Below, in pieces: positions 6,039-64,000 of a stretch of DNA of 64,000 bases; the stretch's first letter is position 1, and each line of letters opens with the position of its first letter. The notes beneath the pieces were generated by a model that did not search any database, was not told where the DNA came from, and was given only the letters and a program-made list of their open reading frames with translations. Source of the stretch: Xestospongia muta (Eukaryota; Porifera; Demospongiae; Haplosclerida; Petrosiidae). The stretch spans positions 4,008,932 to 4,072,931 of the forward strand of contig OY848925.1 of NCBI GenBank assembly GCA_963693285.1. Reading direction: 5' to 3'. A program made the position numbers and the translations under genes.

Positions 6039-6150
6039 AAAAGAAGGAGGGGCTAGCTCACTAGACTAATTGGTGGACAGCAAACTTGATTTAAATTAAT
6101 TCATTTTAAAAAGATAATTGTTTTACGGGTTAAGACGTCTGTATAGAATC
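6039..6150 (+). promoter_or_regulatory. Conserved upstream block of receptor A
   Basis: The last 110 bases before the ATG are conserved with those of H (54577-54688) and more loosely with E and F. Shared words are AGGGGCTAGCTCACTAGA, a run near AAGATAAT, and TTACGGGTTAAGACGTCTGTATAGAATC just before the ATG. No TATA box is obvious. A core promoter or 5' UTR role is inferred from conservation among paralogues only. Confidence 0.4.
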
Positions 6151-8966
6151 ATGGCTTGTGATTGCAAAACTCGAAGAAATTTATCTATGAATGTTACTGA
6201 GATCACTGTTCTGGTTATTGCTCTATGTATTATAGTGGCTCTCTTCTCCTTACCAATTGTGTTTTACTACGTTTCTGTAAGTATATATATATTTAAAATT
6301 GTTATATTAACACACACACATAATACTTGTGTGAATTGGTGATATATTTGATATCTACTATCTTGTCATATACTCTTTTAGGAGTATACTAATTTTTTAG
6401 CTGCTTCTCCTGTAAGTATATGTAATCAACTTGTATGTTTCAATATTTTATTTTATATTATATAAAATAGTGGGAAATGTTTATTTGACCTTTAGGACTC
6501 ATCCTATAACAACAATTTGCTATTAAACACTACCAATAGCAACATTACAGGTGGACAGAACCTTTTCAAAAATGGTTGTACTGCTCTATCAACAACTTGG
6601 AATAAACTTGATATGAACATAACACCTACATATTGTGATACCAATCCATATATTGGTACAATATGTAGGGACTTTCTCTCTGCATGGCATTTGTGTACAA
6701 TAGAGGATGGAGACATTGTCATATACAGTAATGAATCAAAAGAAGCTCAGACACAACATGAAATTGATTTACTTACATTGGATTCATTATTAGGTTAATT
6801 GCTGAATTAATACAATTATGTATGGTTTCTATTATAATTGTTTATAGTGTACTACAAAGAATGTCAACAAGTTGCTATTCCATTTCTCTGTCAATATTAT
6901 TTCCCACTTTATGACTGTCCTAATGGAGACATATATACAGCATCAAGAGAAAACTGTATTGACATTAGTACTGGTATATGTGCTTTACAATGGAATTACG
7001 CTATTAATAATGGGTATGGGGACAGATTGCCTAATTGTCAAAAGTTACCATCTCGTGAGTATGAACCATAAATTTACATAATTCAACACTTATAAATTAT
7101 AAGCAGTGATTATATGATCATGACTAGCAACTTACAAATTTCATCTATTTAACTGGCATTCCATATTGAATATTAACTTACTTATTATGGGTTTAGGTGT
7201 AAGAAACAGTATGCTAAACCATAAACTCTATGAATATAAAATTAAGAGTCACCTGTTTTCCCTAATATTCTTTTAAGTATTCTACAGAATAACCCTTAAT
7301 CCTCAAGAAGTTTTAAAACAATATCTCAACAAAGTATATTTGTATATACGTATATGTTGGTTTTGTCATTTCATTTGTTAAATACTCTCATTTGTAACAA
7401 TTAGCGAATGGTCATTTCAATTTAAATACATGATATGTGTATTTTATATACTAGCACACATATAAATGAAAATGTAATTGTTGGATTACATTTATGTCTC
7501 TTAATTTATTGCAGATACTATAAATGGTTCTTTTATATATAAATCCTTCAATTCTACTCTTCAAAATATAACATGTAGAGAAGATTTTATTAAAATCAAC
7601 AATACTTGTCAACCTCGATGTGATAGATTTGAACAAGGCACTCATACTGGAAGTCAACTTTTGATATACTCAGAATTAATAGCATCATGTGTTGCTTTGT
7701 TACTTTGTATACTAATTGTGACAATATCAATCAAAGATTACAAAACAATGTGAGTTTATTACAAGTGATTTAATGTGATTATGAAACATTTTGTTAGGTT
7801 TTCATTTCCGTCTATTTTGTTAATATTTTTAATTGTTGACTGTTCAATAATAGGTATGCTTATAATAAAGACAAATGAGAAAGTTATTTTTTACATAGCA
7901 CTCTTGGTCATCATCATTTCTATTGACAGAAATGGTTTACTCTGCAGTTCGACAAGTCTTATTGACAGTCTCAATAATCCAACATTATTTTGTACACTAT
8001 CAGGTTTAATGATATTATTTCATGTCAGAAATATTTATAATTGCTTCACATAGGAGTAGTTTTTCATTATACTAGTGTCAATATGGTATTAATGTGGTTC
8101 TTTCATGTCACTACATTCTTTTATAAAGTTATCTTTCCCTTTCATGCCAATCGAATGGAAAAATTAGGACGAAACAAATACATTTTAGCTGTGATGATGT
8201 TTTTTGGTATGTCAAAGTTTATAAATAATGAATTATTATTAATTTCACAGGTTTAGTTATACCATTACCAGCTGTTATAGTGTCTCTCTCTGTGGAAGAT
8301 TATAAATATACTATACACCGTTTTCCTCCAAATGTTTGCATTAGTGATGGACCTATGTGGTTTTATTCTATTACTGTCATTTTTGATGTACTTGCAGGTA
8401 TTGGAACATACTTTCTATTTGTTGTCTTTTGGATTATACACAAGGTAAGCAAATTTTTAATAAATATTACAAACTTATTATGATTATTTTAGAAATCTAT
8501 TTTCCAATCAAACTCTAATAAAAATAACAGACAACTGAGTACAGCTGAGAAGAAAATACTTGTTGCAATATGTTTATTTATAATCTTTGCTGTATTTACT
8601 TTAGTACATACTGCCATTGTTACAGCTAAATCTGACAAATTTATTGCTGCAGTGACAGATTATTTCAAGTGTGAGGCTTTAGGACATGTTCCTGGAAAAT
8701 GCAACAGATCTGAGTTCGAACAATACTACAACCCCTACATCAGTGCAATATCATATACTCTTATAGGACTAGTTCCATTAGGTATTCTCAACTTTGTGTT
8801 AAAGTGGAGGTCCGTAAAAGAAGTAGCAGTGAAATCATTTCATTGGCTTACTACGAAATCTGTTGATATTACAAAAATTTCAAGTTTGTCATCAAGGCAA
8901 AAGAGTGTGAGTGGTGTTGTGAACGTTCAAGCAATATTTCCGTTCAAAATACAGATGCGTGTGTAA
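6151..8966 (+). CDS. Frizzled/Smoothened-like 7TM receptor A, intact, 10 exons
   Basis: Exons: 6151-6276, 6382-6411, 6496-6793, 6848-7054, 7515-7749, 7798-7853, 7899-8003, 8054-8206, 8251-8444, 8493-8966; 625 aa, all GT-AG. Exon 1 gives MACDCKTRRN then a hydrophobic segment (signal anchor or signal peptide). Exons 3-4 carry ten cysteines in Frizzled-CRD order, including FLCQYYFPLYDC, SRENC, TGICALQW and RLPNC. Exon 5 adds a three-cysteine linker (ITCREDF, NTCQPRC) and TM1. Exon 6 opens FSFPS, like the Frizzled SYP segment at TM2. Exons 8-10 supply TM3-TM7, ending in FVLKWRSVKEVAVKSFHWL and a short tail. In Frizzleds the CRD binds Wnt-type lipidated ligands and the tail recruits Dishevelled; whether that holds here is unknown. 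Closest paralogue in the window is H. Confidence 0.85.
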
Positions 8967-10205: not shown

Positions 10206-10467
10206 ATGGACTGTGGCTGCAAAACTCGAAATGAGATCACAGTTCTTGTTATTGCTCTATGTATTATAGTATCTCTTTTCTCTTTACCAATTGCGTTTTA
10301 GTACGTTTCTGTAAGTACTACCTTTTATTAAATTGTCTTGTACATCATTTACACACTTACAAACTTATACGTAAATAATTCATTTTAGGATCACGCTAAA
10401 GTTTTTAGCAGCTTCTCCTATATGTGTATACAGTGCAACATGTATATTTCAATGTTATATCTCATAA

Positions 10468-10509
<42 letters not shown>

Positions 10510-13859: not shown

Positions 13860-13973
13860 TCCTCCATATCTAACTCCACGTGCCAATTGTAATAACAATT
13901 TATAACCATTATATAAATTTGGTTTACTGCTTCACATTCCACGCAATACAAACGTCGATGTCAATATAGAAAC
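13860..13973 (+). promoter_or_regulatory. Upstream region of receptor C with TATA-like box
   Basis: A TATAAAT lies at 13912-13918, about 60 bases before the ATG, and a CACGTG E-box-like hexamer at about 13877. The region is nearly identical upstream of D except that the hexamer there is CACGTGG. It differs from the upstream block of A, E, F and H, so C and D form a separate promoter class. Confidence 0.4.
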
Positions 13974-16900
13974 ATGGCTTGTGGCTGCAAAACTCGAAGA
14001 AAATTATCTTTGAATGTTATTGAGATCATTGTTCTAGTTATAGCTCTATGTATTATAGTGGCTCTTTTCTCCTTACCAATTGTGTTTTACTACGTTTCTG
14101 TAAGTATATCCTTTATTAAATTGTTATATTAACATATTCTGTGCACACAAGTATATATACGCACATATTATACATGTGTGAATGGTAAAATGTTTGAGTT
14201 CTACTATTTTGCCATAACCTACTTTTTTATCTGCTTCTCCTGTAAGTCCATACAATTAACTCAAACATTTTATAAACTTATAATGTGCAATATATAATTG
14301 TAGAAAATGTTTATTTCACTTTTAGGGTTCATCCGATAACAACATATTACAATCAAACAACAGCAATTTCAACATTACTAATGGACGTAACCCTTTTAAA
14401 AATGTTTGTACTATTCTATCAACAGCTTGGAGTACACTTAGTAAAAACATAACACCTACAGATTGTTATGACAATCCATATATTGGTACAGTATGTGGGG
14501 ACTACCTCACAGCATGGCATTTGTGTACAATAGAAGATGGAGATGTTGTTATATACAGTAATAAATCAGAGGAAATTCAGTCACAACATGAGAAGGATTT
14601 ACTTGAATTGAATTCTTTGCTAGGTTATACAAAGTTAATACTATTATGTATGGTTTCTATTATGTTTATATAGTACACTACAAAGAATGTCAACAAGTTG
14701 CTATTCCATTTCTCTGTCAATACTACTTCCCCCTTTATGACTGTCCTAATGGAGACATATATACAGCATCAAGAGAAGACTGTATTGACATTAGTACTGG
14801 TATATGTGCTTTACAATGGAATCTGGCTATTAATTATGGGTACAGGGACAGATTGCCTAATTGTCAAAAGCTATCATCTTGTGAGTGTCTATCATAATAA
14901 TTTATAAGCAGTGGATATTGTCAATGAACTGCAAGTTATAATTTTGTATATTTAGTGTGTGCTCCATTCTGATTGACTGTTATGATTTCAGGATTTAATA
15001 AATATTTTCTAAATCCACCACTTTAAACTTTTGAGAATACAATAATATCACTGTAAAAATTGACTAGTTAAATTAGTTTACATTTGTGTATTACTATGGA
15101 ATCTAGAATTCTTGTAAATTACTCACATTTATAATTTGTTAGAGTGGCATACCATTACAAATCAAAAAATTATATAGTAAACAATTTACCTGATCTCTTG
15201 ATTCCAGAGATTTCTACAAATGAAGCCTATTGAATATTTTTTAAAGTAACAAAATTTATTTTTAAAGTGAGAGTCAGTAATCTCTTTGACATGCTTTAAT
15301 GTAATCTGCAGAAAAGCAGATGAGGAAATTTAGACTATAAGACAAATTTTTTTTAAATGAAAAGAGTGTTAAAATAAAAGTGGAATCAACCTTCATATAC
15401 CCTCCAGTAGTTCAAAATTAACACGTTGTCTAACAATCACAAAAAGGACCTTTTAAAGTTTTTATAATTATGCCCATTGTTTGTGTTATACATATTTGCC
15501 AATCAAAGTAGAGTGCCATTTAAATAGCCAAAATTGGTGTAGTTGCCTATCACTATCAAAAAATAAATAAAAATAAATAACACAATATACATACATACAT
15601 TTAAATCTCAAACATGAGAGTACACATAATTCTAAAATATTATTCATGCATGTTGTAGTTTCATTAACTTATCGATCTATCCCACGAAAAAAAAAATATA
15701 TATATATATATATTGTATAATATTATAATTACAATTAACTATTTCTGCCTGACATAACAGTGAGTAATGTTCATGCATAAATGTGTATTTTATGCACTAG
15801 TATGTACACATATAAGTGAAAATAGAGTTGTTTTATTACATTAATGTCTTTTATTCTATTACAGATACTGAAAATGGTTCTTTTATAAATAAATCACTCA
15901 ATTATACTATTCAAAATATTACATGTAGAGAAGATTTTATTAAAATCAACAATACATGTCAACCTCGATGTGACAGATTTGAACAAGGCACTCATAATGG
16001 AAGTCAACTTTTGATATGCTCAGAATTAATAGCTTCATGTGTTGCTTTGTTACTTTGTATACTTATTGTAGCAATATCAATCAAAAATTACAAATCAATG
16101 TGAGTTTATCACATGTGATTGAATATGATTATGACATATTTTATTAGGTTTTCATATCCATCTATCTTGTTAATATTTTTAGTTGTTGACTGTTCAGTAA
16201 TAGGTAGGCTACAATCATATTAATTAACGATAAATGAGAAGGTTTATATTTCTTTACATAGCACTTTTGGTCATCATTATTTCCATTGACAGAAATGGTT
16301 TACTCTGCAGTTCAACAAGTCTTATTGACAGTTTCAATAACCCAACATCATTTTGTACACTCTCAGGTTTAATGATCTTTTCATGTCAGAAACATCTATA
16401 GTTGTTTTATATAGGAGCTGTTTTGCATTATGCTATTGTCAACATGATACTAATGTGGTTTTTTCACGTTATCACATTTTTTTATAATGTTGTCTTTCCT
16501 TTTCATGCCCATAGAATGGACAGAATAGGACGAAACAAATACATTTTAGCTGTGATGATATTCCTTGGTATGTCAAAAACTACTAATAAAATATCATTAA
16601 TTTCACAGGTCTAGTTATACCAATACCAGCTGTTATAATATCTCTTTCTGTGGAAGATTATAAATATAATATACACCGTTTTCCTCCAAATATATGTATA
16701 AGTGATGAACCTATGTGGTTCTATTCTGTTACTGTCATTATTGATGTACTGGTATGTATTGGAACATATCTTCTATTTGTTGTCTTTTGGATTATTCACA
16801 GGGTAAACGTTTTTAATAAATTTTACAATTATTATGATTGGTTTAGAAATCTATTTTCCAAACAAATTCTACCAATAATAAAAGACAACTGAGCACAGCT

Positions 16901-22799: not shown

Positions 22800-22919
22800 C
22801 TTTTTTCCTCCATATCTAACTCCACGTGGCAATTGTAATAACAATTTATAACCATTGTATAAATTTGGTTTACTGCTTCACATTCCACGCAATCCAAACG
22901 TCGATGTCAATATAGAAAC
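22800..22919 (+). promoter_or_regulatory. Upstream region of receptor D with TATA-like box
   Basis: TATAAAT at 22858-22864 lies about 56 bases before the ATG, in the same position as in receptor C. The flanks are nearly identical to 13860-13973. Confidence 0.4.
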
Positions 22920-25900
22920 ATGGCTTGTAGCTGCAAAACTCGTAGAAAGTTATCTTTGAATGTTACTGAGATTACGGTTCTGGTTATTGCTCTATGTATT
23001 ATAGTGGCTCTTTTCTCCTTACCAATTGTGTTTTACTACGTTTCTGTAAGTATATCCTTTATTAAATTGTTATATTAACATATTCTGTGCACACAAGTAT
23101 ATATACGCACATATTATACATGTGTGATTGGTAAAATGTTTGAGTTCTACTATTTTGTCATAACCTTTTAGGATTATACTACTTTTTTATCTGCTTCTCC
23201 CGTAAGTCTATACAATTAACTTATACATTTTATAAACTTATAATGTGCAATATATAATTGTAGAAAATGTTTATTTCACTTTTAGGGTTCATCCAACAAC
23301 AACATTTCACCATCAAACAATAGCAATATCAACATTACTAATGAAAGTAACCCTTTCAAAAATGTTTGTACTACTCTGTCAATAACTTGGAGTACATTTA
23401 GCATAAACATAACAACTACAGATTGTTATGACAATCCATATATTGGTACAGTATGTAGGGACTTTCTCACAACATGGCATTTCTGTACAGTAGATGATGG
23501 AGACATTGTCATTTACAGCAATAAATCAGAGGAAATTCAGTCACAACATGAGAAGGATTTACTCTTATTGAATTCTTTACTAGGTTATACTAAATTAATA
23601 CTATTATATATGGTTTCTATTATGTTTATATAGTACACCACAAAGAATGCCGAAACTTTGCTATTCCATTTCTCTGTCAATATTACTTCCCACTTTATGA
23701 CTGTTCTAATGGAGACATATATACAGCATCAAGAGAAGACTGCATTGACATTAGTACTGGTATATGTGCTTTACAATGGAATCTGGCTATTAATCTCGGG
23801 TATGGAGACAGATTGCCTAATTGTCAAAAGCTATCATCTTGTGAGTGTCTATCTTAAGTTGACATAATAATTTATAAGCAGTGGATATTGTCAATGAACA
23901 GCAAGTTATAGTTTTGTATATTTAGTGTGCGCTCCATTCTGATTGACTGTTATGATTTCAGGATTTAATAAATATTTTCTAAATCCTGAACTATAAACTC
24001 TTGAGAATACAATAATTTGACTAGTTAAATTAACAACCGTTGTAGTTTACATTTATGGATTACTATGGAATCTAGAATTCATGTAAATTACTCTCCTTAT
24101 AATTTGTTGGAATGGCATACCATTACAAAGCAATAAATTGTATAGTAAACAATTTACCTGATCTCTTGTTCCAGAGATTTCCACAAATGAAAGCTAATAA
24201 ATATTTTCTAAAGTAACAAAATTTATTTTTAAAGTGAGAGTCAGTAATCTCCTCGACATGTTTTAATGTAATCTGCAGAAAAGCAGATGACAAAATTTAG
24301 ACTATAGGACAAAATATAACTTGGACAAAAATTTTTGAAAATGAGAAAAAAATGTTAAAATAAAAGTGGAATCAAACCTGCATATACCCTCCAGTAGTTC
24401 AAAATTAACAGCTTGACTAACAATCACAAAAAAGACCTTTTAAAGGTTTTATAATTATGCCCATTGTTTGTATCATACATATTTGCCAAACTAAGTAGAT
24501 TGCCATTTAAATTGGTAAGTTGGCTATCACCATAAAAAAAACTAAATATAAACTAAATAAAGATAAATAACACAATATACATACGTCCATTTAAATCTCC
24601 AACATGAGAGTACACATAAGTCTAAAATATTATTCATGCATGATGTAGTTTCATTAACTTATCGATCTATCCCATGAAGATATATATATATATATATATT
24701 ATATTGTGTAATATTATAATTACAATTTACTATATCTGCCTGAGTAATGTTCATGCATTAATGTGTATTTTATCTACTAGCACACATATGAGTGAAAATA
24801 TAATTGTTTTATTACATTAATGTCTCTTATTCTATTACAGTTACTGGAAATGGTTCTTTTATAAATAAATCACTCAATTCTACTATTCAAAATATAACAT
24901 GTAGAGAAGATTTTATTAAAATCAACAATACATGTCAACCTCGATGTGACAGATTTGAACAAGGCACTCATAATGGAAGTCAACTTTTAATACACTCAGA
25001 ATTAATAGCATCATGTGTTGCTTTGTTACTGTGTATACTGATTGTGACAATATCAATCAAAAATTACAAATCAATGTGAGTTTATCATATATGATTGAAT
25101 GTAATTATGAAATATTTTGTTAGGTTTTCATATCCATCTATTTTGTTAATATTTATAGTTCTTGACTGTTCAGTAATAGGTAGGCTACAATCATATTAAT
25201 TAACAATAAATGAGAAGGTTTATATTTCTTTACATAGCACTTTTGGTCATCATTATTTCCATTGACAGAAATGGTTTACTCTGCAGTTCAACAAGTCTTG
25301 TTGACAGTCTCAATAACCCAACACCATTTTGTACACTATCAGGTTTAATGATCTTTTTTACATCAGAAACATCTCTAGTTGTTTTATATAGGAGCTGTTT
25401 TGCATTATGCTATTGTCAACATGGTTATAATGTGGTTTTTTCATGTCATCACATTTTTTTATAATGTTGTCTTTCCTTTTCATGCCCATAGAATGGACAG
25501 AATAGGACGGAACAAATACATTTTAGCTGTGATGATTTTCCTTGGTATGTGTAAAATTATGATAAGAAATTATCACTAATTTCACAGGTCTAGCTATACC
25601 ATTACCAGCTGTTATTATATCTCTTTCTGTGGAAGATTATAAATATAATATACACCGTTTTCCTCCGAATATTTGTATAAGTGATGGTCCTATGTCATTT
25701 TATTCCATTACTGTCATTATTGATGTACTAGTATGTATTGGGACATATCTTCTGTTTGTTGTCTTTTGGATTATTCACAGGGTAAACATTTTTTTAAAAA
25801 AATTTACAATTATTATGATTCATTTAGAAATCTATTTTCCAATCAAATTCTACAAAAAATAAAAGACAACTGAGTACAGCTGAGAAGAAAATCCTTATTG

Positions 25901-31970: not shown

Positions 31971-32081
31971 GGAAGAGGGGCTAACTCGCTAGATTTAACT
32001 TAGGAACAGCAAAACTATTTAAATTGATTTATTTTAATAAGATAATCATTTACGGGTTAAGACGTCTGTATATATCAAACC
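31971..32081 (+). promoter_or_regulatory. Conserved upstream block of receptor E
   Basis: It contains AGAGGGGCTAACTCGCTAGA, GATAATCATTTACGGGTTAA and GACGTCTGTATA before the ATG, matching the blocks upstream of A and H. Confidence 0.4.
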
Positions 32082-35000
32082 ATGGCCTGTGGTTGCAGAA
32101 CTCGAAGAAATTTATCTACCAATATTACTGAGATCGTTGTTCTGGTTATTGCTCTATGTATTATAGTGGCTCTATTCTCCTTACCAATTGTCTTTTACCA
32201 CGTTTTTGTAAGTATATTTTTAAATTGTTATATTAACACAATTAGCACTAACAAGCACACACACATATATATGTGAATTGGTAATATATTTGATATCTAC
32301 TATTTTGTCATAAACTCTTTTAGGACTACACTAATTTTTTAGCTGCTTCTCCTGTAAGTACATGTAATCAACTTGTATGTTTCAATATTTTATTTTATAT
32401 GATAAATAATAGTAGCAAGTGTTTATTTGACATTTAGAGATCATCCTACAACAATAATTTGCCATTAAACAGTACCAATAGCAACATTATTGATGGACAG
32501 AATGTTTTCAAAAATGACTGTACTACTCTATCTATAACTTGGAGTAGCCTTAGGGCAAACGTAACACCTACATACTGTGATAACAATCCATATATTGGTA
32601 CAATATGTAAGGACTTTCTCACAGCATGGCATTTGTGTACAGTAGAGGATGGAGACATTGTCATATACAGTAATAAACTAAAGGAAACTCAGACACAACA
32701 TGAAAGGGATTTACTTACATTGGATTCATTATTAGGTTAATTTCTAAATTAATACAATTATATATGATTTCTATTATAATTAATTATAGTGCACTACAAA
32801 GAATGTCAACAAGTTGCTATTCCATTTCTCTGTCAATATTACTTTCCACTTTATGACTGTCCTAATGGAGACATATATACAGCATCAAGAGAAGACTGTA
32901 TTGACATTAGTACTGGTATATGTGGTTTACAATGGAATCTGGCTATTAATTATGGGTATGGAGACAGATTGCCTAATTGTCAAAAGTTACCATCTTGTGA
33001 GTGTGAACCATAAATTTACATTATTAAACACTTATAAATTGTGACCTGATTTGCAAAAAGGGACCATTTCTGTCAAAACATTTGTGACCTGATTTGTGAT
33101 AAAACAGATTTAAAACATATCAAAAAACAGTTTTGCATACATATAGTTATGCATATATATATAAACTGTATGTATACAAAACTGTTTTTTGAGATGTTAT
33201 ATCAGTATTTTTTTCCCAAATCTGGTCACAAATATTTTGAGAGAAGTGGTCACTTTATATATAATCACTTCTTATAATTATAAACAGTGACTATATGACT
33301 ATGACTTGCAACTTATAAATTTCAGCTTTTTAACTGGGACTCAAGATTGAATGTTAACATGTCTATTATGGGTTCAGGTGCAATAAAAGTTTATTAGACA
33401 CTAAACCCCTATGAAGATACAATTAAGGGTCATTCCCAAACATACTTTAAAGTATTCTATAGAATAACCTGTGATGATAATTTCAAAATAATAAAAAAAA
33501 TTTAGACCATTGGACAAAAACCAAAAATATTAAAACAATAATAACACTAAAGTGTAAGTAATGTTTATATAGTAGCACGCTTCTATACACCCTGCAGCAA
33601 CTTACATTTAACCATTACCTAATGAAACGCACTAAATGCAGAGCGCTAACCACATTATATCAACAAAGTATATTTGTATGTTGGTTTTATCATTTCACTC
33701 ACTTAATCACTCATTTGTAACAATTAGTGTATGCTCATCTCAGTGACAAATTTAGATGATAAAATGTGTATTTTACGTATATATTAGCACACATATAAGT
33801 GAAAATATAATTGTTGGATTACATTAATGTCTCTTATTTTATTAAAGACACTGAAAATGTTTCTTTTATAAATACATCCCTTAATTCTACTCTTCAAAAT
33901 ATAACATGCAGACAAGATTTTATTAAAATCAAAAATACATGTCAACCTCGATGTGACAGATTTGAAGTAGGCACTCACACTGGAAGTCAACTTTTGATAT
34001 ACTCTGAATTAATAGCATCATGTGTTGGTTTGTTACTTTGTATACTGATTGTGGCACTATCAATCAAAGATTGCAAAATAATGTGAGTTTATTACATGTA
34101 CATAAATATGATTATAAAATATTTCGTTAGGTTTTCATATCCATCTATTTTGTTAATATTTGTAGTCATTGATTGTTCAGTAATAGGTATGTTATAATAT
34201 TTATATAATGATGAATGAGCAATGTTTTAATACTTAATATAGCACTCTTGGTCATCATCATTTCAATTGACAGAAATCATTTACTCTGCAGTTCAACAAA
34301 TCTAATTGACAGTTTTAATAATCCAACACCATTTTGTACACTATCAGGTTTAATGATATTATTTTACATCAGAAACATTTATAATTGTTTTACATAGGAG
34401 CTGTTTCTCATTATGCTATTGTCAACGTGATACTAATGTGGTTCTTTTATGTCACTATATTTTTTTATAACGTTGTCTTTCCCTTTCATGCCAATCGAAT
34501 GGAAAAAATAGGACGGAACAAATACATTTTAACTGTGATGATATTCCTTGGTATGTGTAAAATTATGATAAGAAATGATCACTAATTTCACAGGTCTAGT
34601 TATACCATTACCAGCTGTTATAATATCTCTTTCTGTGAAAGATTATGAATATAAAATACGTCGCTTTCCCTCAGGTCTTTGTTTAACCAATGGACCTATG
34701 TGGTTCTATTCCATTGATGTCATTATTGATGTACTTGTAGGTATTGGAGTATATCTTCTTTTTATTGTCTTTTGGATTATTCACAGGGTAAACATATTTT
34801 TAATAAACTTTGCAATTATTATAATTGTTTTAGAAATCTATCTTCCAATCAAAGTCTACCAAAAACAAAAGACAGTTGAGTACAGCTGAGAAAAAAATAC
34901 TTATTGTAATTACTTTGATTCTAGTCTTCACTGTATTTAATTTAGTGCACAGTGCCATTTTTACAGCTATATCTGACAAATTAATTGCAGCATTGACAGA

Positions 35001-40491: not shown

Positions 40492-41067
40492 ATGGCCTGT
40501 GGCTCCAAAACTCAAAGAAAGTTATCTGTCAATGTTATTGAGATCACTGTTTTGGTTATTGTTTTGTGTCTTATAGTGGCTCTCTTTTCCTTACCAATTG
40601 TGATTTACTATATTTCTGTAAGTATTATCTTTTATTAAATTGTATATTAATATGACTTGAATACACACACATTATACATGTGTGAATTGATAATATTAAT
40701 TTGTATTTATTATTTTCTCATAAACTCTTCTAGGATTACACTAATTTTTTAGCTGCTTCTCCTGTAAGTATAAGTAACTAACTTGTACATTTCATATTTG
40801 ATTTTATATAATATTTTTTGTTGGAAATGTTTATTTGATTTGTAGGATTCATCCTATAACAACACATTAAACATTAGCAATAGCAATATAATGGATGGAC
40901 AGAAATCTTTAAAAAATACTTGTACTAATCTGTCAATAACTTGGAGTAGACTTGATATAAACATGACGCCTACAGACTGTGATAACATTCACTATATTGG
41001 TACAATATGTAGGGACTTTCTCACTGTATGGCATTTGTGTGTGATAGAGGATGGAGACATTGTCATA

Positions 41068-41180
41068 CACTCAAAAAACATCGGTGTGTTCAACACACCA
41101 CACTGTCAACACACTTTCATTAATGGTGTGCATGACATACTATCTTTTGGTGTGATGGAAAGTAGTGTGTGAAACACACT
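41068..41180. repeat. Left TIR and subterminal palindromes of the CACTA-like element
   Basis: After the TIR come two perfect palindromes: GGTGTGTT-C-AACACACC at 41083-41099 and AGTGTGT-GAA-ACACACT at 41164-41180, plus single GGTGTG words between. They are probable binding sites of an element-encoded protein by analogy with plant En/Spm subterminal repeats. Confidence 0.7.
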
Positions 41181-41230
41181 TTCATGTGTGAACCAGAACG
41201 TTACATGCATATAAAAGATTTTGGAATTAA

Positions 41231-44147
41231 TCAAATATTCTCAATTAAATGATACTTCAGTGTTATAAATGAAGTGTTATCAACATGGTACATATGCAGT
41301 GGTGTATGATCATATATATCGAAATAAGAAACAACGTCAGTATTACTACTTGACTCTACTTCGAATGAATGGAAATGTTCACTAAAGCAAACTGTAGTTA
41401 AGACTTTACACACAAAGTAAAAATTGGTAACATCATGAACTATGATGCCATCAATTCTACCGAATACTGGTGACAAGTCAACAGATAGTACGACAATGAA
41501 ACCAATCTTATAGACAATTCCTTGTGCTTTCATCCAGTGTACACTGCATGATTTAAAAAGGATATCTTAGTCAGGTAGTAGCTTTATTACTCACCATGTG
41601 ACCAAGGAATCATCATCTAATGTTGGAATCTTTCTTTGTAAGTGATCCTTGTAAGTAAATGTTAGCAATGAAACTTGAGTACCTAGTTAAAACATAAAGT
41701 TTCCTTAAGTAAAATAACCTTAATTATTAGCAAACCTGGACCAGAAGTGATAGGCCTCTCAAAACAGCTTAAGCTTGAGTTCATGTAGTAGCAATGCAGG
41801 CGCTGATGATGGAAAGATAGAGTCTTTGGGATGTTTCGAAAACATTTGATCCTTTGGGCGATATCCTTAAAATAATTGTGTTTTCCCTCAAATCTCATAC
41901 ACCAGAATGTCACAGGTGGGCCACACCTAGTTGTTAGAATGGAATTACTGAACGTTTCACAATGCTTACTTAGAAATCCAGTCAGGATAATGAATCATGT
42001 AATGCATTTTTGGAGTGATTCGGCAAAAAGGGTATAGACATTTAAAGCTCTGATGATGGTCACTGATAAGGGTTCGCAAATATGCAACAAGATCAAGTGT
42101 CAAAACAGGTGCAAAAACTATGTCCAAAATTTTTAAGAGAAGGAGATAGTTTTGCCACTCTTGACATGTTTCTGGAATTTCTTTTCCGATAAGTAGAGGA
42201 AACAACCTTGCTAGGCACCACATCTGAGCAGCTACATTGATGTTGTTTACTGAATAATGAGTGGCATGCATACAAGTACTCCTCACCTTTTTGTTTAACA
42301 GAATGATCAGATTGTTTAAGAGTAGCTGTAGATATAAGTGTTGGTTTGTCAGTAGCATCACTGCCATTGAATGGAAATGATTGGATTCTCTCATTTAGTA
42401 GGTCTAATGAAATTAATTTTTGCTCAAACAGAACATTCAGAAGCTGCCTCATCTCAAACTGCACAGTTCCCTCAAGTAAATCATGCATTATATCGGGGCA
42501 CATTCCTTCAGTCACATGAAAGTAGTTTGACGTATTCAAAATAGAGTCATAACGTACACCATACGTGGTAGCATTTGCTTTGTTAACTTCATCTGAAGAA
42601 GTGGAAACAGATGCACAATGACGAGAGTGAGTTTCTCGAGTTCTGGGATGATGATCTTCAGATAGAAACTATAGGTGACAATACATGTACTTCTATTTAC
42701 AAACAAACGGACCTTTTGACTCATTTCATCATATGTAGCCATACAAAATCTACACTTTCGAAGTGCTCCAGATGGTAGCTTGTATCCTCCCAAGTAGTGA
42801 GATGCCAAGTTATCCCCAGGTACCAATATGAGTGTTCCTTTGATCACTTTCTCTTGTCCATGCAAATTAATGGTAATCCCATTCTGTATGGTAAGTAATG
42901 CATGTAGATAAATTAAGTCACATAATATATACCTCTTCTAACTCCAGCAAATCTCTCATAAAGGGCTTCAGTACAGCATTTACACCGTATTTTTCAATGT
43001 GTTGAGACTTCCCAACAGCGAGTAGGTTTATAGCATGGTATGTTGATCGCAAGTGTGGCCTAAGATTCCCAATTATGTAGTAAAATATCCCTGTGGATGG
43101 ATTGTTAAACAATAAGTACATTGAAGAAAACATACCCAATTTATGACTTTTGGTCTTTGTACCGAGTGGATTACACACTTCCAACTCATCGAAATACAGC
43201 ATTATTTGAAGGGCATTCAGGTCAGTTGATAAAAGAGGGTGTTCCTTAAATTGAGTGCCATCACAGTAATCACCCAAGTATCCTAGAGTGTTTTTATGAC
43301 CCCTTGATATCTATAAAAATGTAATCATTGTGGTACACACAACTATTGAATACACAGACCTCATCCTGCACTGTGCTATCTTTCAGACATAACTGTAATG
43401 ATTCCAAAAGTGGAACCATATATATGTATTCTCCCACTTGTTTCAAATGAGGTCTTGACTTGCTTCTTGTGAGGGTCAAAATTTCCCCTAACTTAATTTC
43501 AGAAGGCTCCTTTAATTAATTAAACACAAGTAATGTACATGTAAACCTTTGCAACATACCAGTAATCCAAGAAAGTCATGGTAATATTGTTCTTGAAGGT
43601 ACTTTGAATGTAATCCTTGAAAAGGATCAAGTGTAGAATACTGTAGAAAAACATTGCTAAGATTAGTGTCCAAAGTAATGTTATTCTGGTCCAAACACTG
43701 CCTGATATCATGCTCCATAGAGTCAGTGATGAGTTTAATAAAGGAAGACATGTCTTGAATAACTCCATCAAGTGCTTTTTGGGTAACCTTATGAACTTCT
43801 TTGGTTTTTAAGAGAAATAATGCACTTATCCGTTTACGGTCTTCTGTCGCTTCACACTCAGTTACAATTTCTGTTTGATTGTCATCATAATATGTACAGT
43901 CATGCTCTTCATCTTCAGTAAGTGGTAGTGTAGATTGAGACAAATCAGAACAATCAAGTTCAGAACGATGTTTTCGGTAGATATGCTTCTTAAATGAGTA
44001 GAAGTTAGTGTAAGTTCTTGTACACAAATTAATTCCGCAATTTACGAAGAAGTTGGATTCATGAGCATGAATATTCCCAATGTGTCTCACAATTCCTTTG
44101 AGAGTAGGAGAGGCCACTTTAAAACACATCCAACAATGAACAACCAT
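41231..44147 (-). CDS. CACTA/EnSpm-like transposase, 10 exons, intact
   Basis: Exons, 5' to 3': 44147-43560, 43509-43360, 43310-43136, 43090-42933, 42883-42713, 42668-42287, 42231-41970, 41926-41736, 41682-41595, 41543-41231; all GT-AG, phases agree, 825 aa. The N-terminus (residues 1-60) has C2H2-like fingers (HCWMCF..., HIGNIHAH; CTRTYTNFYSFKKHIYRKH). A long linker follows. Exons 3-4 carry LYFDELEVCNPLGTK, KSHKLG and YIIGNLRPHLRSTYHAINL, the block around the first catalytic aspartate in tnp2/Plavaka-like proteins. Exon 5 has a CxxC (RKCRFCMATYDE). Exon 6 has GMCPDIMHDLLEGTVQ with candidate further acidic catalytic residues. Exon 7 has KMHYMIHYP (HxxxH). Exon 8 has FWCMRFEGKHNYFK. DDE residues are not assigned with certainty. 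It should cut and paste the element in the nucleus. Confidence 0.85.
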
Positions 44148-44225
44148 TATATTCTTCTAAGTTCTAATTAATGCCGGGCACCACCCATAATTATTTTGAA
44201 CACGTGTGAATTGATGTGAATTGCC
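44148..44225. promoter_or_regulatory. Bidirectional promoter region between the two transposon genes
   Basis: Only 78 bases separate the two divergent ATGs. The stretch holds GGGCACCACCC and GAACACGTGTG but no TATA box. Shared control of the two genes is inferred from the spacing. Confidence 0.4.
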
Positions 44226-46214
44226 ATGAGCTCAGCCACGAAGTGTGTTCTCGTCTCATATTTGGAAAGGAATAAGGTCATAAGGGTCCCTATTGTGAAG
44301 GAAGATACTGACTTGGAATTCATAAGAAAAGAATTTATAAAGCTCTTTTCTTTTGAGGGAAATGTTAGACTTTGTCTTAGCTTTCAGAGGTTTGACGAGG
44401 ACTGGCAGGATTATGTTGAAATTGACGAAGGAGATGATATTGAGAATAAAGAAAAGATCAAGGTTATTGTGATTCCTGTTCTAGGAACACCAGGAAGTTC
44501 TAATGATGGAGGGGTGAGTATATTCTTCATGTGTAGTAGTGAGCTTTTGTAGTCCACAGTTCTATTATCTGAGGAGAGTACTCCACAACAGCCTAGACTG
44601 AAGAGGAGAGTCTTATTTGATGACAGTGACAATTCTAGTCCTGAGTGTTCAAAGGTATGTTAGGGTTTATATTTTAATGATCATACCTATGTTGTATTTG
44701 AGGATGAAGTCCAGTTCAAAAAAAGACGTGTCGTAAGGGATGAAGATGATTCTGTCCCTTTACCGAAACCTTTCCCAGTGCCAAAACATTTCACAAAAGA
44801 TATTGAGTTGGCCTTGAGAGAAAAAAAGATGTCAAGAGAAACAAACAAGAAATTTATGTCTGCTATTGCCAGTGCTGTTTTGTCTTATAAGCGATATCCG
44901 ACTGCACTTGATTACGACAATGTAGCCCTCTCAGTCATTGAAAAATATCCTTTCCTCAGGTCTCCACAAGGAACACCACAGGTATATTTTAATACTAACA
45001 TCAAGCAAATAGTAGTACTAATAGGGTGCGATTGTGTGCTGTCTTAAGAACAGGTTTAAGGAATTCAGAAGAATAAAGAAAACCAGAGACAAGCCTGAAG
45101 AGAAACAGGCTAATACATGTACCTCAAGCAGTACTGCATCTACGTCAATGCCATCTGGGCTCACAACTGCTTTGGAAACACCTGATATTCCACCTGGTAA
45201 CATAATACTGTAAATGTCTTTAATGTATGGAGGTGATTTTAGCTTTAATTTGTAATTTATGTGTATGTCTGTTGTCTAAAGTTTTCTTGAAAATGTACAT
45301 GAATACATTTACCACAAATTAACTGTTCATAAACTTTTGTAGGTGAAGATGCTGTGTCCTTTGAACGCCATAACAAAATGATCTGTGCTGAATATAAGAA
45401 AAAAAGTCCAAATAAAGCAGTTGTTGATGAGTTAGTTAACCTTTCATTTGCAATGCGACGAGAGGACTTGTTGACTACAAGTAGTATGTGTGAAGTATTC
45501 ACAAGATTTCCCTTTCTAAAGGAAGAAGAGGAGGTACATTTCTATTCTAGGTTTTCTTGGATACTTACTTTATCATGTAGATAATCAAAGAAATGGAGAG
45601 GATGACCAAGATGGTTGACTTGAGAGAATCATGTATGAGAAAATGGGAAAGAATTTCAGAGAGAATAATGGAACAGGCTTTAGTTGAAGCAAAAACATCT
45701 GCCAAAACTAAGCAAATGATTGAAGACAAAAAGGGTATACCAGGTAAGACTCAAGTATGCACAATATGGGTAAAGGTTCACATTTTCTCATTTCAGAATC
45801 TCTCAATGCTTTCCGACTCCTGCCTCTTCTCTTACCTGACACACGAGTTAAAGCAGCAGCTAATAAACTCCTCAAATTCTCTGATGTAAGTTACACAAAC
45901 TTTATTTCAACATGTACCTGTTGTAGGGTGGAGTTCCAGGGATGGAAGAATTGGTGATGAATATCTCTCAGCCCGAACCTTACGTTCTTATGTTTGGGGA
46001 TCAGTTCTTCCTAGTGATTGACTGTATAGTGGTTACAGAAGTAGATGCTGAAGCTGTTCCAATTACTCTGCTATCATCTTACTTTGTATTCAACATTAAA
46101 TATCCGAAAGGCTGCAACAATCTCTTCTCATTCTTGGAGGTGTTGTTGTTGGGGGGTAATGGTGAGAAGCTAAGTCCTACTGTCAAAAATTTCTTTTCTT
46201 TCATTGTCAATTGA
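44226..46214 (+). CDS. Transposon accessory protein, PB1-like plus SAMD3-like, 8 exons
   Basis: Exons: 44226-44513, 44553-44654, 44703-44981, 45049-45196, 45343-45533, 45581-45743, 45797-45885, 45927-46214; all GT-AG, phases close, 515 aa. Residues 1-90 look like a PB1/ubiquitin-like fold: basic residues early, FIRKEFIKLF, then LSFQRFDEDWQDYVEIDEGDD and KIKVIVIPV. A basic-acidic linker (LKRRVLFDDSD, KKRRVVRDEDD) may hold a nuclear signal. Exon 3 onward (KHFTKDIELALREKK, YPTALDYDNVALSVIEKYPFLR, NRFKEFRRIKK) and the end (YPKGCNNLFSFLEVLLL) match the layout of high-copy animal proteins annotated as SAMD3-like. Its role is unknown; by position it resembles TnpA of plant En/Spm, a DNA-binding partner of the transposase. 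No SAM domain was recognised. Confidence 0.8.
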
Positions 46215-46592
46215 GTTCTTTTTTCATTCATTTAATCATATTTTCTGATTTGTATATACAATGTTTCTGATTGCTATATTTATTGCTATATAAGAAGTGT
46301 GTCTGGCACACCATAGCATACACATTCATTGTCAATTGAGGGACAGTTCTTTTTTTTATTCATTTAATCATATTTTCTCATTTTGTATATACAATGTTTC
46401 TGATTGCTATATTTATTGCTATAAAAGAAGTGTGTCTGGCACACCATAGCATACACATTCATTGTCAATTGAGGGACAGTTCTTTTTTTATTCATTTAAT
46501 CATATTTTCTGATTTTGTATATACAATGTTTCTGATTGCTATATTTATTCCTATAAAAGAAATGTGTATGGCACACCAAAGCATACACACTA
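46202..46592. repeat. Tandem repeat, three copies of about 133 bp, in the right end of the element
   Basis: ATGTTTCTGATTGCTATATT occurs at 46261, 46394 and 46526, and each copy also has GTGTGTCTGGCACACC (changed to ATGTGTATGGCACACC in copy 3) and CATTCATTGTCAATTGAG. The first unit overlaps the stop codon of the accessory gene (TTCATTGTCAATTGA), so the array grew from its 3' end. Confidence 0.9.
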
Positions 46593-46599
46593 CAGTACA

Positions 46600-46716
46600 A
46601 GTGTGTTTTACACACAATCTCAAAAGTGTGAAGAACACACTTTTTTGAGTGTGCGTATAGGGACAACAATCGCACACCTAATTTGGTGTGTATAACACAC
46701 TTTATTTTTTTCAGTG
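46600..46716. repeat. Right subterminal palindromes and TIR of the CACTA-like element
   Basis: Three palindromes are seen: GTGTGT-TTT-ACACAC at 46601-46615, AAAAGTGTG-N5-CACACTTTT at 46622-46644, and GTGTGT-ATA-ACACAC at 46686-46700. The TIR follows and ends ...TTTTTTTCAGTG at 46716. Confidence 0.75.
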
Positions 46717-47162
46717 TATACAGCAATAAATCAGAAGAAACACAACCACAATATGAAAAGGATTTACTTGAATTAGATTTATTATTAGGTTATACTAAAT
46801 TAATACAATTAATTATGATTTCTATTATCATTAATTATAGTGCACCACAAAGAATGTCAACAAGTTGCTATTCCATTTCTCTGTCAATATTACTTCCCAC
46901 TTTATGACTGTCTTAATGGAGACATATATACAGCATCAAGAGAAGACTGTATTAACATTAGTACTGGTGTATGTGCTTTACAATGGAATTACGCTATTAA
47001 TAATGGGTATGGGGACAGATTGCCTGATTGTCAAAAGTTACCATCTAGTGAGTATGTACTTTAAATTGTCATAATTATAAATATACACGTTATAGATTGT
47101 TGTTGTTTGACCATGACAGTCAACTTACAAATTTCACCTTTTTAGCCAGCACTCTATTCGCA

Positions 47163-54576: not shown

Positions 54577-54688
54577 AAAAGAAGGAGGGGCTAGCTCACT
54601 AGACTAATTGGTGGACAGCAAACTTGATTTAAATTAATTCATTTTAAAAAGATAATTGTTTTACGGGTTAAGACGTCTGTATAGAATC
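54577..54688 (+). promoter_or_regulatory. Conserved upstream block of receptor H
   Basis: It is almost identical to 6039-6150 upstream of receptor A, from GAAGGAGGGGCTAGCTCACT to TATAGAATC before the ATG. Confidence 0.4.
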
Positions 54689-57075
54689 ATGGCTTGTGAT
54701 TGCAAAACTCGAAGAAATTTATCAATGAATGTTACTGAGATCACTGTTCTGGTTATTGCTCTATGTATTATAGTGGCTCTCTTCTCCTTACCAATTGTGT
54801 TTTACTTCGTTTCTGTAAGATTTATTAAATTGTTGTTACACACATTATACTTGCATGAATTGGTAATATATTTGATATCTACTATATTGTCATATACTCT
54901 TTTAGGAGTACACTAATTTTTTAGCTGCTTCTCCTGTAAGTACATGTAATCAACTTGTATGTTTCAATATTTTATTTTAGGCAGTGTCTATAGGTCCGGT
55001 AGAAAAAGCCATACTTTAATGTGAAATTAATACTATACCCTGGACCCTACACCCTAAACACTAGTCCCTAAATGTATTAATTTCACATTAAAGTATGGCT
55101 TTTTCTACCGGACTGTAGACACTTCGTTTATTTTATATTATATATATACATATATAATGGTACAAAATGTTTATTTGATTTGTAGGGCTCATCCTATAAT
55201 AACAATTTGCTATTAAACAATACAAATAACAACATTACAGGTGGAAAGAACCTTTTCAAAAATGTGTGTACTACTCTATCAATAACTTGGAGTAAACTTG
55301 ATATAAACATAACACCTACATATTGTGATCAGAATCCATATATTGGTACAATATGTAGGGACATTCTCACAGCATGGCATTTGTGTACAATAGAGGATGG
55401 AGACATTGTCATATACAGTAATGAATCAGAAGAAGCTCAGACACGACACGAAAGTTATTTACTTAAGTTTGATTCATTATTAGGTTAATTACTGAATTAA
55501 TATAATTATGTATGGTTTCTATTATAATTGTTTATAGTGTACTACAAAGAATGTCAACAAGTTGCTATTCCATTTCTCTGTCAATATTACTTCCCACTTT
55601 ATGACTGTCCTAATGGAGACATATATACAGCATCAAGAGAAGACTGTATTGATATTAGTACTGGTGTATGTGCTTTACAGTGGAATTACGCTATTAATAA
55701 TGGGTTTGGGGACAGATTGCCTAATTGTCAAAAGTTACCAATTAGTGAGTATGTAGCATAAATTTATATAATTCAACACTTATAAATTATAAGCAGTGAT
55801 TATATGACTACAACTAGCAATTTACAAATTTAAGTGATTTAATGGGTGCTTCATATTTAATATTAACTTACCTATTATGGGTATATGTGTAAGCAATGGT
55901 TTACTAGACTATGAACCTTATGAATATACAATTACTGTTTTCCTTAATATTCTTTAAAGTATTCTACAGAATAACCCTTAATGATAACTTCAAATTAAAA
56001 TAAATTAACAATATTTATACTATTGGGCCAAAAAAATAAACAAAAAATGTTTTTAAAAAAATAATGCTAAAGTCTATGTAAAGTTTATATATTACCACAC
56101 ATTTATATACTCTCCAGCAAATTACATTAAAATTAAACACTATCTAATGAAAAGCACTAAAGTGCACAATCCTAACTACTATTAATTTGTTTGCAATTGC
56201 TATTCACCCATTAAATGAAAACATTTTAAATCCTTAGAATAATATGGACAAAATGATTATATAACATTTTCTTTATGCAAATGATGAAGATGGTAAAAAC
56301 TCTAGGCGTTGCAAGTGCCAGTTTAACCATAGTTAGTGTGGCAGTGGCAGTCATGGTCAAGTAAAGACCCTGTTTCTTTCTTAATTTGTGTATTTTGTAG
56401 ACTGAGTGTAACTTTTATAACATTTAAACGTGATAGTAACATCTCCTTTTAGATGTATCCAGTTACCGCTACACTGTTGGCAAAAAAGGCTGTCAAGGTA
56501 ATAAAATTTGCCACAATTAAAAAACGAAACGAAATGAAAATTTCAATGTAGAAATTGTGGACAATTGTATTTATACTCATTGTAGTTTTATTGGATCAAA
56601 CAGTCTTGCCAGTAATTTTTTTAAAGTTCTTTCTGATTTTGAAGTCTTTTCTTTCTTTGACATATATACACCCTTTATAGAACGAGTTGATAGTACTTGT
56701 TCTCTGTCAGGATTTTAAGATGTAGACAGTGTCGTTGTCAGACAGACAAACAGACACAACACACACATACACTAAGGCAAGTACGGCTTGGGTTAACAGT
56801 CAGTTAAGTCGTGATTATAACCACGCCCATTGATTGCGTCATGCGTATTGTCCAATCAGAATGATTGGCAGTTAAACATCCGAAATTTGTAAGTTAGGGT
56901 CAAAAACCATTTCCTAAATCAAAATAAATAAAATACATACATGTATTTTAAGTGTCAAACATGACAATACAAGAATATTTCAAAAGAATTAACAATGAAA
57001 ACATATATATATTGAAGTTATTTTAATTCATCCATATATATATATATATATATAATTATATAATTTTATACATAT

Positions 57076-61514: not shown

Positions 61515-62465
61515 AAAAAGCGAGGTTACCGTAGTCTGTCAGTGTGTGTGTCTGTTAACCGGGATTGTTGTTTGAACTGCTATAACTTGGCAAGCGAAGT
61601 ATTGGCAGCTACTAACGTTTAGAATCGAATAGAAAAAACGTGTGGACTTTACAACAGTAGTATCAAGAACATCGTCAAAGAAAATGAAAGCTTAAAACTC
61701 CAAAAAGAATTTTGGCAGTGTCTATTCGCCCGGCAGGAAATTATACTTTGTTGTGTATTAAACTGATCCCCACCCCCTAAACTTTATACAACAAAGTATA
61801 CATTTCCTGCTGGACAAATAGACAGTTGGATGAATTTTTAGGCTACAGAAGTTAAGGTGCCGTTTCTCGAAAAGTAAAAACTAAATGTGGAGATTTTTTA
61901 GTATGATGTAGACAACCTTAGAGGAATACACATCAGCAAGACAGAAGGCCGCTGGTCGAAGCAATCGTCAAAAAAGTTCTGAGGTTTTTTTAAGATTGTA
62001 CATGGACTTGGATTGGAGCGTAGTAACGCATTCAGGAAACGACTCCAAGCACTGAAAAACTGCTACTAATAGTTAATATATCGATTTATATTTGTACTGC
62101 TGGACGTTTCCAGGAAGTTTCATCTTCAAGCTCCAATAAATTTTGTATATGAAATATTGATACATTTTAAAGCGTTATTTAAAGGCTCAGAGAAAATTTC
62201 ATTACAAATCTAGCACTTAATCTCGCTTGGCAATTGAGTGATACTATTACTTACTCAGTTACAGCTTTACAAACATGGCAAAGCTAGAAATCAAGCAACA
62301 ATTAATGAGTATATACAAAATGACAAAGCTTACCATTTTATGACCACACCTTCTGAAATGTTAATACATTTTCTTCCATTGCTACAAGCAATATCATAGC
62401 TGGTCCTAAGGTGGCATAGCATTTATAAATGCAACTAGGTTCTGTACTTAAATGCTTTTCAATGT
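61515..62465. mobile_element. Insertion of about 950 bp inside exon 1 of pseudogene I
   Basis: Receptor exon 1 similarity stops at GTTCTTGTTATT and restarts at CTATGTATTATAG. The insert begins AAAAAGCGAGG and ends GCTTTTCAATGTT, with weak inverted ends (AAAAAGC and GCTTTT). It contains the MITE at 61714-61831. No ORF of note and no clear target duplication were seen, so its class is unknown. Confidence 0.5.
61714..61831. mobile_element. hAT-like MITE nested in the insertion
   Basis: The left end GGCAGTGTCTATTCGCCCGG is mirrored by CTGGACAAATAGACAG at the right; the inner arms GGAAATTATACTTTGTTGTG pair with CAACAAAGTATACATTTCC. GAATTTT flanks both sides (61707-61713 and 61832-61838). It shares the GGCAGTGTCTAT terminus with the MITE at 54980. 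Confidence 0.75.
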
Positions 62466-63292
62466 TCTATGTATTATAGTAGCTCTCTTCTCCTTACCAA
62501 TTGTGTTTAACTACGTTTCTGTAAGTACTACCTTTACTGTCATTTACACACGTACACACACACATTACGAAGTGAATTGCTAATACTTATATTTTGTTCT
62601 TTTTACGATAAATTCTATTAGAATTACACTAATGGTTTTTAGCTGCTTCTCCTGTAGGTATATGCAACTTGTATATTTCAATGTTATATCTTATAAATTA
62701 GTACACACACACACACACACATATATATAACTGAAGAAAACATTTATTTTATTTTTAGGGTTCATTCTATAACAACAGATTGCCATTAAACAGTAGCAAT
62801 ATCAACATTACTAATGGACTTTCAAAATATTTGTGCAACTCTATCAATAACTTGGAGTAGTCTTAGTGTAAACATAACACCTACAGACTGTGGTAACAAT
62901 CCATATATTGGTACAATATGTAGTGATGTTTTAGTGCATGGTATTTCTGTAAAGTAAATGATGAAGAGGTCGTCCTATACAGTAATGAATCAGAGGAAAC
63001 TTAAAACTCGAAGTGATTTACTCAGATTAGATTCATTATTAGGTTATACTAAATTAATACAATGGTTTCTATTATGATTGTTTATAGTGTACTATAAAGA
63101 ATGTCAACAAGTTGTTATTCCATTTCTCTGCAAATTTTACTTCCCACTTTATGACTGTCTTAATGGAGGCATGTATACAGCATCAAGAGAAGACTGTATT
63201 GACATTAGTACTGGTGTATGTGCTTTACAATTGAATCAAACTAGTAATAATAGGTATGGAGACAGATTGCCTAATTGTGAGGATGTACCTTA

Positions 63293-64000
63293 AATTAGCA
63301 TGATTATTATATATATATAAATTATAGGCTGTGATTATTTGACCTGGTCAGTCAACTTATAAGTTTTGGCCATTTAACCAGCACTTCATTCTGCACACTG
63401 TAAGATTAGTCTGTTACTTTAACAAGTAATTTGCTTTTCACAAACGCAGATTATGATGGAATCTCATCGTCAAAAATGATCGATTGATTGAACAAATATA
63501 TTAAGCATCAAAATGAATTGTTACTCCATTAAAATTTTTTTTGCAACAAATTTTATTTTTTCTCACTTTCCTTAAGATGTTCTTTAGTATAAACATGTAT
63601 GTATACACATTTATTCCCTGTGGTTAGGTTTTCCTTTGATATATTGGCCAAACTGAACACTTCCACTAAAATCGATTATGGCTGCTACTTTTTTGGTACC
63701 TAATAACTTTTGATAATAGTCAACAACAAGTCTAGGAATGGTTGGACCTTAAACATTTTTCAAGGAAAATCAATGTCTCCAATATGTAGCATGATGAAAA
63801 TTTGGAGAAAACACTCTCATGAAAATATTTGCTAAAATAATATATTGACAACTTAAGCGTTTGGACAAATATTCTTTAAATTTGCATTTTAACTACTCCC
63901 CTGTTGAGAATAACACCAACAAATGTCTTCATATATCTTTAAATGACTGTTTTCTAGTTTCTATATATATATATATATATATGTTGTGTGCCATTTGCTA
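63293..64000. other. 3' part of pseudogene I intron 4 and flank
   Basis: It begins like intron 4 of receptor F, including a CACTGTAAGATTAGTCTGTT MITE end at 63397. A (TA)n run lies at about 63963-63982. No receptor exon 5 was found before the window ends. Confidence 0.45.

Follow-up and report, generated by a model that had tools for sequence, protein, structure and literature searches.

A 64,000-nucleotide stretch of the genome of the sponge Xestospongia muta (assembly GCA_963693285.1, contig OY848925.1, positions 4,008,932 to 4,072,931 of the forward strand; the whole stretch is referred to here as the window, and positions are counted from its first letter) carries a 5,649-bp element at 41068..46716 that is almost certainly a complete cut-and-paste DNA transposon of the CMC (CACTA/EnSpm-like) group. 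The element was mobile until very recently and, judged from its sequence, is likely autonomous. It contains two divergently oriented genes: gene A, a predicted DDE (Asp-Asp-Glu) transposase, and gene B, whose product is proposed to be a partner protein that acts on palindromic sites in the ends of the element.

Boundaries, Copies, and Empty Sites

DNA searches of the genome (158 Mb in 28 contigs; the window lies on the contig designated C9) revealed three full-length copies. In addition to the copy in the window there is one on contig C5 that is 99.91% identical to it (5 differences) and one on C9, ∼61 kb away, that is 99.5% identical (28 differences). All three hold both genes between identical ends, and the flanking DNA differs among them. 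The initial annotation of this DNA had described an apparently complete two-gene CACTA/EnSpm-like element that is autonomous or was so until very recently; completeness and recent mobility are borne out by the two further copies with the same ends and both genes, by empty insertion sites and by a diverged second lineage.

Each full-length copy is embedded in locally duplicated host sequence, and therefore paralogous empty sites exist. There were 24 near-complete empty sites for the window copy (81-89% identical), 4 for the C9 copy (95-96%), and 3 for the C5 copy (93-98%), plus more distant or partial ones. When five, one, and three of these, respectively, were aligned, the left and right flanks overlapped by exactly two bases, TA, at all nine (5/5, 1/1, and 3/3). 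Alignment thus fixed both the ends and the 2-bp target-site duplication, and the coordinates in the initial annotation proved exact: CACTC starts at 41068, CAGTG ends at 46716, and a TA lies on either side (41066..41067 and 46717..46718). One empty site paralogous to the window insertion, with a single TA, is located within the window at 6576..6873 (plus strand), and further aligned ones are at 14406-14699, 32519-32815, and 55267-55563. In the second lineage one copy is flanked by TA and another (L064) by CA, and the dinucleotide therefore belongs to the target; a reading of TA as part of the element was rejected on the CA pair and on the empty sites.

The ends CACTC...CAGTG, found in all three copies, conform to the 5'-CA...TG-3' ends of CMC/CACTA-like elements (5'-CAC..GTG-3' in EnSpm), and the 2-bp duplication at the nine aligned empty sites falls within the 2 to 5 bp typical of the group. 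The terminal inverted repeats are 32 bp long (left, 41068..41099, plus strand; right, 46685..46716, minus strand), match at 24 of 32 bases in a by-eye count, and each include a palindrome at positions 16-32.

The host sequence that the element splits is duplicated in tandem, with eight copies in the window (6045-7164, 10232-10872, 13960-14886, 22906-23871, 32017-33026, the element flanks, 54583-55831, and 62463-63499) and ∼forty matches along C9.

Gene A, the Transposase

Gene A (41231..44147, minus strand) has 10 exons (44147-43560, 43509-43360, 43310-43136, 43090-42933, 42883-42713, 42668-42287, 42231-41970, 41926-41736, 41682-41595, and 41543-41231) separated by introns of 43-55 bp, every one of which is GT-AG. 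A first model of 846 amino acids, in which a 45-bp intron was retained and 18 extra bases were included, was corrected with the aid of homologues to 825 amino acids, which reproduced the 10-exon gene proposed at the outset.

Relatives were sought with residues 200-700 of the 846-residue model at a cut-off of E up to 1e-3. The protein search returned 140 relatives, 120 of them among the matches listed; those named among the matches listed came from sponge, cnidarian, echinoderm, fish, arthropod, brachiopod, and nemertean, the closest being from Amphimedon queenslandica (48% identical), followed by a coral (40%) and Amphimedon again (39%). In an alignment of 20 rows (the query and 19 of the 120 listed relatives), two aspartates, two cysteines, and two histidines were invariant and the final glutamate was conserved in at least 90% of rows (D287, D396, C416, C419, H639, H643, and E663 in 846-residue numbering; D287, D381, C401xxC404, H618xxxH622, and E642 in the 825-residue model). 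A DDE triad with C(2)C and H(3-4)H between the second D and the last E is the signature of EnSpm, Mirage, Chapaev, Transib, and Plavaka transposases (PMC12730594), and gene A carries it, with the catalytic residues assigned by position.

In Pfam scans over the 20 rows, Transposase_21 was matched in five, Plavaka in two, and DUF4218 in two. The window protein itself gave no match to Transposase_21 (PF02992) at E up to 1 and a sub-threshold match to Plavaka (PF18759; 20.8 bits versus a curated cut-off of 26.3). The initial assignment to tnp2/Plavaka-like transposases draws its support from the signature in 20 rows and from the Pfam matches of the relatives, the 825-residue protein itself staying below threshold. 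Gene A is predicted from these comparisons to be an intact CMC/CACTA-type DDE transposase related to Transposase_21 and Plavaka proteins. C2H2-like units are indicated near its N terminus by a sub-threshold Pfam zinc-finger match and by aligned cysteines and histidines.

Gene B, the Putative Partner

Gene B (44226..46214, plus strand) encodes 523 amino acids in eight exons (44226-44513, 44553-44654, 44703-44981, 45025-45196, 45343-45533, 45581-45743, 45797-45885, and 45927-46214) with introns of 39-146 bp. The splicing of these eight exons to a full-length frame, as first proposed, was confirmed, with the stop at 46214; a ninth exon in an automatic model was rejected on this stop and on the alignment of the second-lineage B protein to the same end. 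The start codons of the two genes are 78 bp apart (44148..44225), a gap that is presumably a shared divergent promoter.

No credible Pfam match was found for B at E up to 10, and exon 1 alone gave one meaningless match at E 1.8. Myb/SANT domains were not detected in Pfam scans, and comparison with PDB sequences and with NCBIfam gave two and one matches, respectively, all weak and unconvincing. A protein search with B scored 7,997 candidates and, at E up to 1e-3, yielded only two relatives from the protein collection, P0001 and P0002 (42% and 35% identical). Residues 150-250 as the query returned nothing among 45 candidates, a result without weight, as the known relatives P0001 and P0002 were likewise not returned. 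Viral contigs were searched for relatives of A and of P0001, and none was confirmed.

The initial annotation had called B both SAMD3-like and PB1-like. The first label was not supported: no SAM domain appeared in Pfam scans up to E 10, SAMD3-type relatives not having been adequately searched. The second is compatible with the results as far as the fold is concerned, as exon 1 was predicted with modest confidence (predicted local distance difference test score [pLDDT], 62) to form a ubiquitin-like fold. Its best structural matches were DWNN-type domains, and PB1 and PB1-like domains scored similarly, among other such folds and not above them. PB1-type domains often link proteins into dimers or filaments. 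A Foldseek search with the middle domain of B returned nothing at E up to 0.001. By eye, residues ∼180-215 of B (KRYPT...KYPFL) seem to recur more weakly at ∼310-340 (AMRRE...RFPFL), and a small helical domain may be present twice in the protein.

Intact Frames and Silent Change

Every GT-AG is kept and the A and B frames are open in all three full copies, as had been claimed for the window copy. The C9 copy differs from the window copy in 8 codons of A, 7 of them silent, and in 6 codons of B, 5 of them silent; the C5 copy differs in 1 codon of A and 2 of B, all silent. Under random change the expected silent share is ∼24%, and the binomial P values against this share for the C9 copy were 3.3e-4 for A, 4.1e-3 for B, and 2.4e-6 for both. 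Since change was mostly silent in both genes, selection probably preserved both proteins until the very recent past.

Recurrence of the Pairing

Exon matches to B (103) and to A (96) across the genome were joined, when on the same strand and within 3 kb, into 49 and 47 clusters, respectively. B was found within 6 kb of A at 21 of the 47 A clusters, compared to the ∼0.2 that random placement would give. All 21 pairs were head-to-head, one of them with an additional tail-to-tail B piece nearby. The second lineage is represented on C7 by a 5.4-kb element with CACTG/CATTG ends, TA flanks, and A and B in the same order, and by piece it is 38-56% identical to the window element in A and 35-42% in B. 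A copy of this lineage on C2 has deletions in A and ends at the same bases as the C7 element. As judged from these matches, B is a family that recurs beside A across lineages of one genome.

The co-occurrence of both genes between the same terminal repeats, on which the initial annotation had staked its proposal, held for the full copies and the diverged lineage; there are also truncated derivatives with B only. A truncated copy on C2 (97.9% identical) still has the right end and the greater part of gene B, and contig C1 has pieces bearing the last B exon. A cluster of small derivatives at C1:34.3-35.2 Mb (L011, L012, L052, L053, and L054; 61-81% identical) has kept the last B exon, with a right-end piece in four of the five. 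Elsewhere on C1, two solo 58-bp left ends (C1:1917944 and C1:1920073; L019) lie 2.1 kb apart within a 1.35-kb tandem duplication, and no matching right end was found in the 9.9 kb read.

Palindromic Sites in the Ends

Sites resembling a 17-bp palindrome, AGTGTGTNNNACACACT, are present in both ends of the element. Three are on the left (41083..41180; starts 41083, 41125, and 41164) and six on the right (46296..46701; starts 46296, 46429, 46561, 46600, 46625, and 46685), where a tandem repeat of three 125-133-bp units (46200..46589) includes one site per unit. Allowing up to 3 mismatches, there were 12 matches in the window versus a shuffle mean of 6.07, and 12 was reached in 1 of 100 shuffles. 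Ten of the 12 (nine distinct sites and one shifted register) fell within the outer 200 bp on the left and 450 bp on the right of the element, and with up to 2 mismatches all seven matches in the 64-kb window were in its ends.

The outermost palindrome begins at base 16 at both ends in both the window family and the second lineage (7, 6, 7, and 5 of 7 arm pairs), and the C2 left end of the second lineage has 7 of 7 arm pairs at the corresponding place. A palindrome at base 16, with 5 or 6 of 7 arm pairs, was also found in five end-like sequences (L011, L012, L013, L051, and L054), of which L011, L012, and L054 resemble one subfamily; the pattern search for it gave no match in L010, L052, and L053. 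A match at 7367 in L013 was dropped as a chance pattern match that is not an end. Because arm bases vary in pairs between some lineages (GTGTGT/ACACAC, GTGTGC/GCACAC, and GTGTAC/GTACAC), the sequences suggest selection for symmetry, as in the binding site of a dimer.

A wider second inverted repeat lies by the right end at 46649-46678 and has a counterpart in the right end of L048/L055. It shows a compensated change, GTGTGCG...CGCACAC in the window versus GTGTCCG...CGGACAC in L048/L055, around a conserved GGGACAA core.

Proposed Roles of A and B

In the explanation that we favor, protein A, with its N-terminal C2H2 zinc-finger-like units and DDE core, would cut at CACTS..SAGTG. Protein B would bind the palindromes 16-32 bp inside each end and the subterminal repeats (three left and six right), either as a dimer or as an oligomer formed through its ubiquitin-like N-terminal domain, and would bring the ends together and help to recruit A. 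Perhaps it would also regulate the shared promoter, as TnpA does in plant En/Spm. Plant TnpA binds subterminal repeats and is required with TnpD for transposition (PMC2613891, PMC1636069). We consider this explanation as a whole, a complete and recently mobile CMC transposon with these roles for its two proteins, to be probable, and its central step, the binding of B to the end palindromes, to be somewhat favored.

A number of observations weigh against this explanation. The C9 copy, on which the case for selection is built, has a small number of coding differences (14), and two changed coding sites are common to the C9 and C5 comparisons. The truncated and dead C2 copy, in which B has 5 silent and 6 replacement codons (one replacement common to the C9 copy) and a 2-bp frameshift, is a weak control, at most suggestive. 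No DNA-binding domain was recognized in B with Pfam, and its middle region was modeled poorly (mean pLDDT, 50) and yielded no structural match that could be used. In the alignment of A, four of the 20 rows (P0012, P0068, P0070, and P0086) had been annotated with PF02992 beforehand, as had 7 of the 120 listed relatives in all, and therefore 5 of 20 overstates the rate of Transposase_21 matches. The raw number of palindromes is modestly above chance, which is weak, and the case for them therefore rests on clustering and position. The right end of the second lineage pairs only 5 of 7 arm bases, with two pairs broken, and a remnant end (L050) pairs 2 of 7, so that its palindrome is not kept.

The pairing is open to similar objections. 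The cluster tables are incomplete, with 82 of 187 first-look candidates scored for B and 55 of 505 for A. Nor can the 21 pairs be counted as independent: three belong to the window family and three (C7, C2:20.48 Mb, and C1:13.17 Mb) to one other lineage, the remaining 15 being known from the cluster tables only. No B was detected beside 26 of the 47 A clusters, and no A beside 27 of the 49 B clusters. Nine of the partnerless A clusters (C1:23758067, C4:7659872, C2:11719823, C8:2790275, C2:20185241, C1:24043183, C2:16601365, C1:22957250, and C4:6316626) are single-frame copies of ∼590-635 codons with 0-2 stops, 36-38% identical to A and with no detected B within 6 kb; two further partial single-frame copies without B are 34% and 41% identical to A. 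The nine copies seem to do without B, and they are probably one or a few intron-poor families.

Two alternatives overlap with the favored explanation, and we regard each of them as unlikely. In the first, B is carried by the element and selected, and its role is regulatory or anti-silencing, as a repressor, an activator, or a recruiter of demethylation, rather than end binding. This would fit the divergent genes with 78 bp between their start codons, the lack of a recognized DNA-binding domain in B, and the promoter and suppressor roles of plant TnpA itself (PMC1636069, PMC2613891). However, the fixed distance of the palindrome from the cleavage points, at both ends and in two lineages, is not required by a purely transcriptional role. 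In the second, A binds the palindromes through its N-terminal zinc-finger-like units, and B does other work, such as nuclear import or target choice. The sub-threshold Pfam match and the aligned cysteines and histidines are in keeping with such binding, but the sites that such zinc fingers recognize are mostly non-palindromic.

It is very improbable that B is a host gene that the element captured and carries as a passenger, without any use for it. Transposons do capture genes, and the B clusters without a detected A could be read in this way. However, order and orientation are kept in a lineage 35-56% identical by piece, and the passenger reading was rejected on the silent-biased change in B among young copies and on its head-to-head recurrence in 21 of 21 pairs. 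A chance assembly of decayed transposon pieces, spliced only conceptually, has a negligible probability and is refuted by three near-identical full-length copies in different flanks with intact splice sites and frames, and by the empty sites that fix the boundaries.

Comparison with Known Elements

The element resembles plant En/Spm (TnpD/TnpA) in its CACTA-type termini and in combining a tnp2-group transposase with a second protein. Subterminal repeats in plant CACTA elements are likewise sparse at one end and abundant at the other, 4 and 24 in soybean Tgmt* compared to 3 and 6 here (PMC2613891). However, the two proteins of plant En/Spm come from alternative splicing of one unit, whereas the present element has one gene model on each strand, divergently arranged, and the soybean element has a 3-bp duplication compared to 2 bp here (PMC2613891, PMC1636069). 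Also unlike plant En/Spm, the repeats here are palindromic and B is without a match to a described family. The comparison of the gene pair with TnpD plus TnpA in the initial annotation thus stands as a likeness of function, which we infer, and not as one of gene organization.

Among animal elements, SmTRC1 of Schistosoma is a CACTA-like TRC element with a Transposase_21-type transposase, a 2-bp duplication (in 7 of 14 copies) that was shown with paralogous empty sites, and shorter proteins without a transposase domain (PMC1636069). It differs in its 54-bp terminal inverted repeat and its alternatively spliced transcripts, and for its short proteins PrA and PrB no counterpart was detected in other elements of animals or fungi (PMC1636069). 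B, in contrast, is a family that occurs together with A at many positions of this one genome. The CACTA elements of Capsaspora have 3-bp duplications, unlike the 2 bp here (PMC4007536).

The fungal Plavaka and ESTA elements of the CMCT clade share with the sponge element the C(2)C and H(3-4)H between the second D and the last E and, mostly, CA..TG ends, and their duplications (2 or 3 bp in Plavaka, TA in ESTA) may be compared with the 2-bp TA here (PMC12730594). The extra gene in the families covered by that paper is a TET/JBP dioxygenase, unlike B. The window element is set apart from Plavaka by a profile score below the cut-off and by its CACTC..CAGTG ends, unlike the Plavaka termini TGT..ACA or CATCA..TGATG (PMC12730594). 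Nuwa elements of the PIF/Harbinger superfamily also have two genes, a transposase and a separate DNA-binding Myb/SANT partner (PMC12730594), but their transposase belongs to another superfamily, and B has no detected Myb/SANT domain.

Implications

Two-protein CACTA systems are already known in plants. To our knowledge, animal CACTA-like elements have mostly been described by their transposase, and no description of the A-B pairing was found among the matches listed in the open PMC literature. What appears to be new here is that an animal CMC element has a second gene that is separate and divergent, that this gene recurs as a family across lineages of one genome and shows signs of selection, and that the palindromic site is fixed in position. 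Tentatively, B might be the animal counterpart of plant TnpA, an unrecognized family that regularly accompanies animal CMC elements of one intron-bearing clade and co-evolves with palindromic terminal sites; we regard this broader proposal as possible rather than probable.

B-like proteins would be mobile-element genes, which is a warning to annotators. The proteins annotated as "SAMD3-like" in fish and cnidarians may be relatives of B, and if that is true many of them would be transposon partner proteins, some maybe domesticated. A recurrent second gene together with a precisely placed palindrome makes a concrete two-component animal system for testing, with very young copies.

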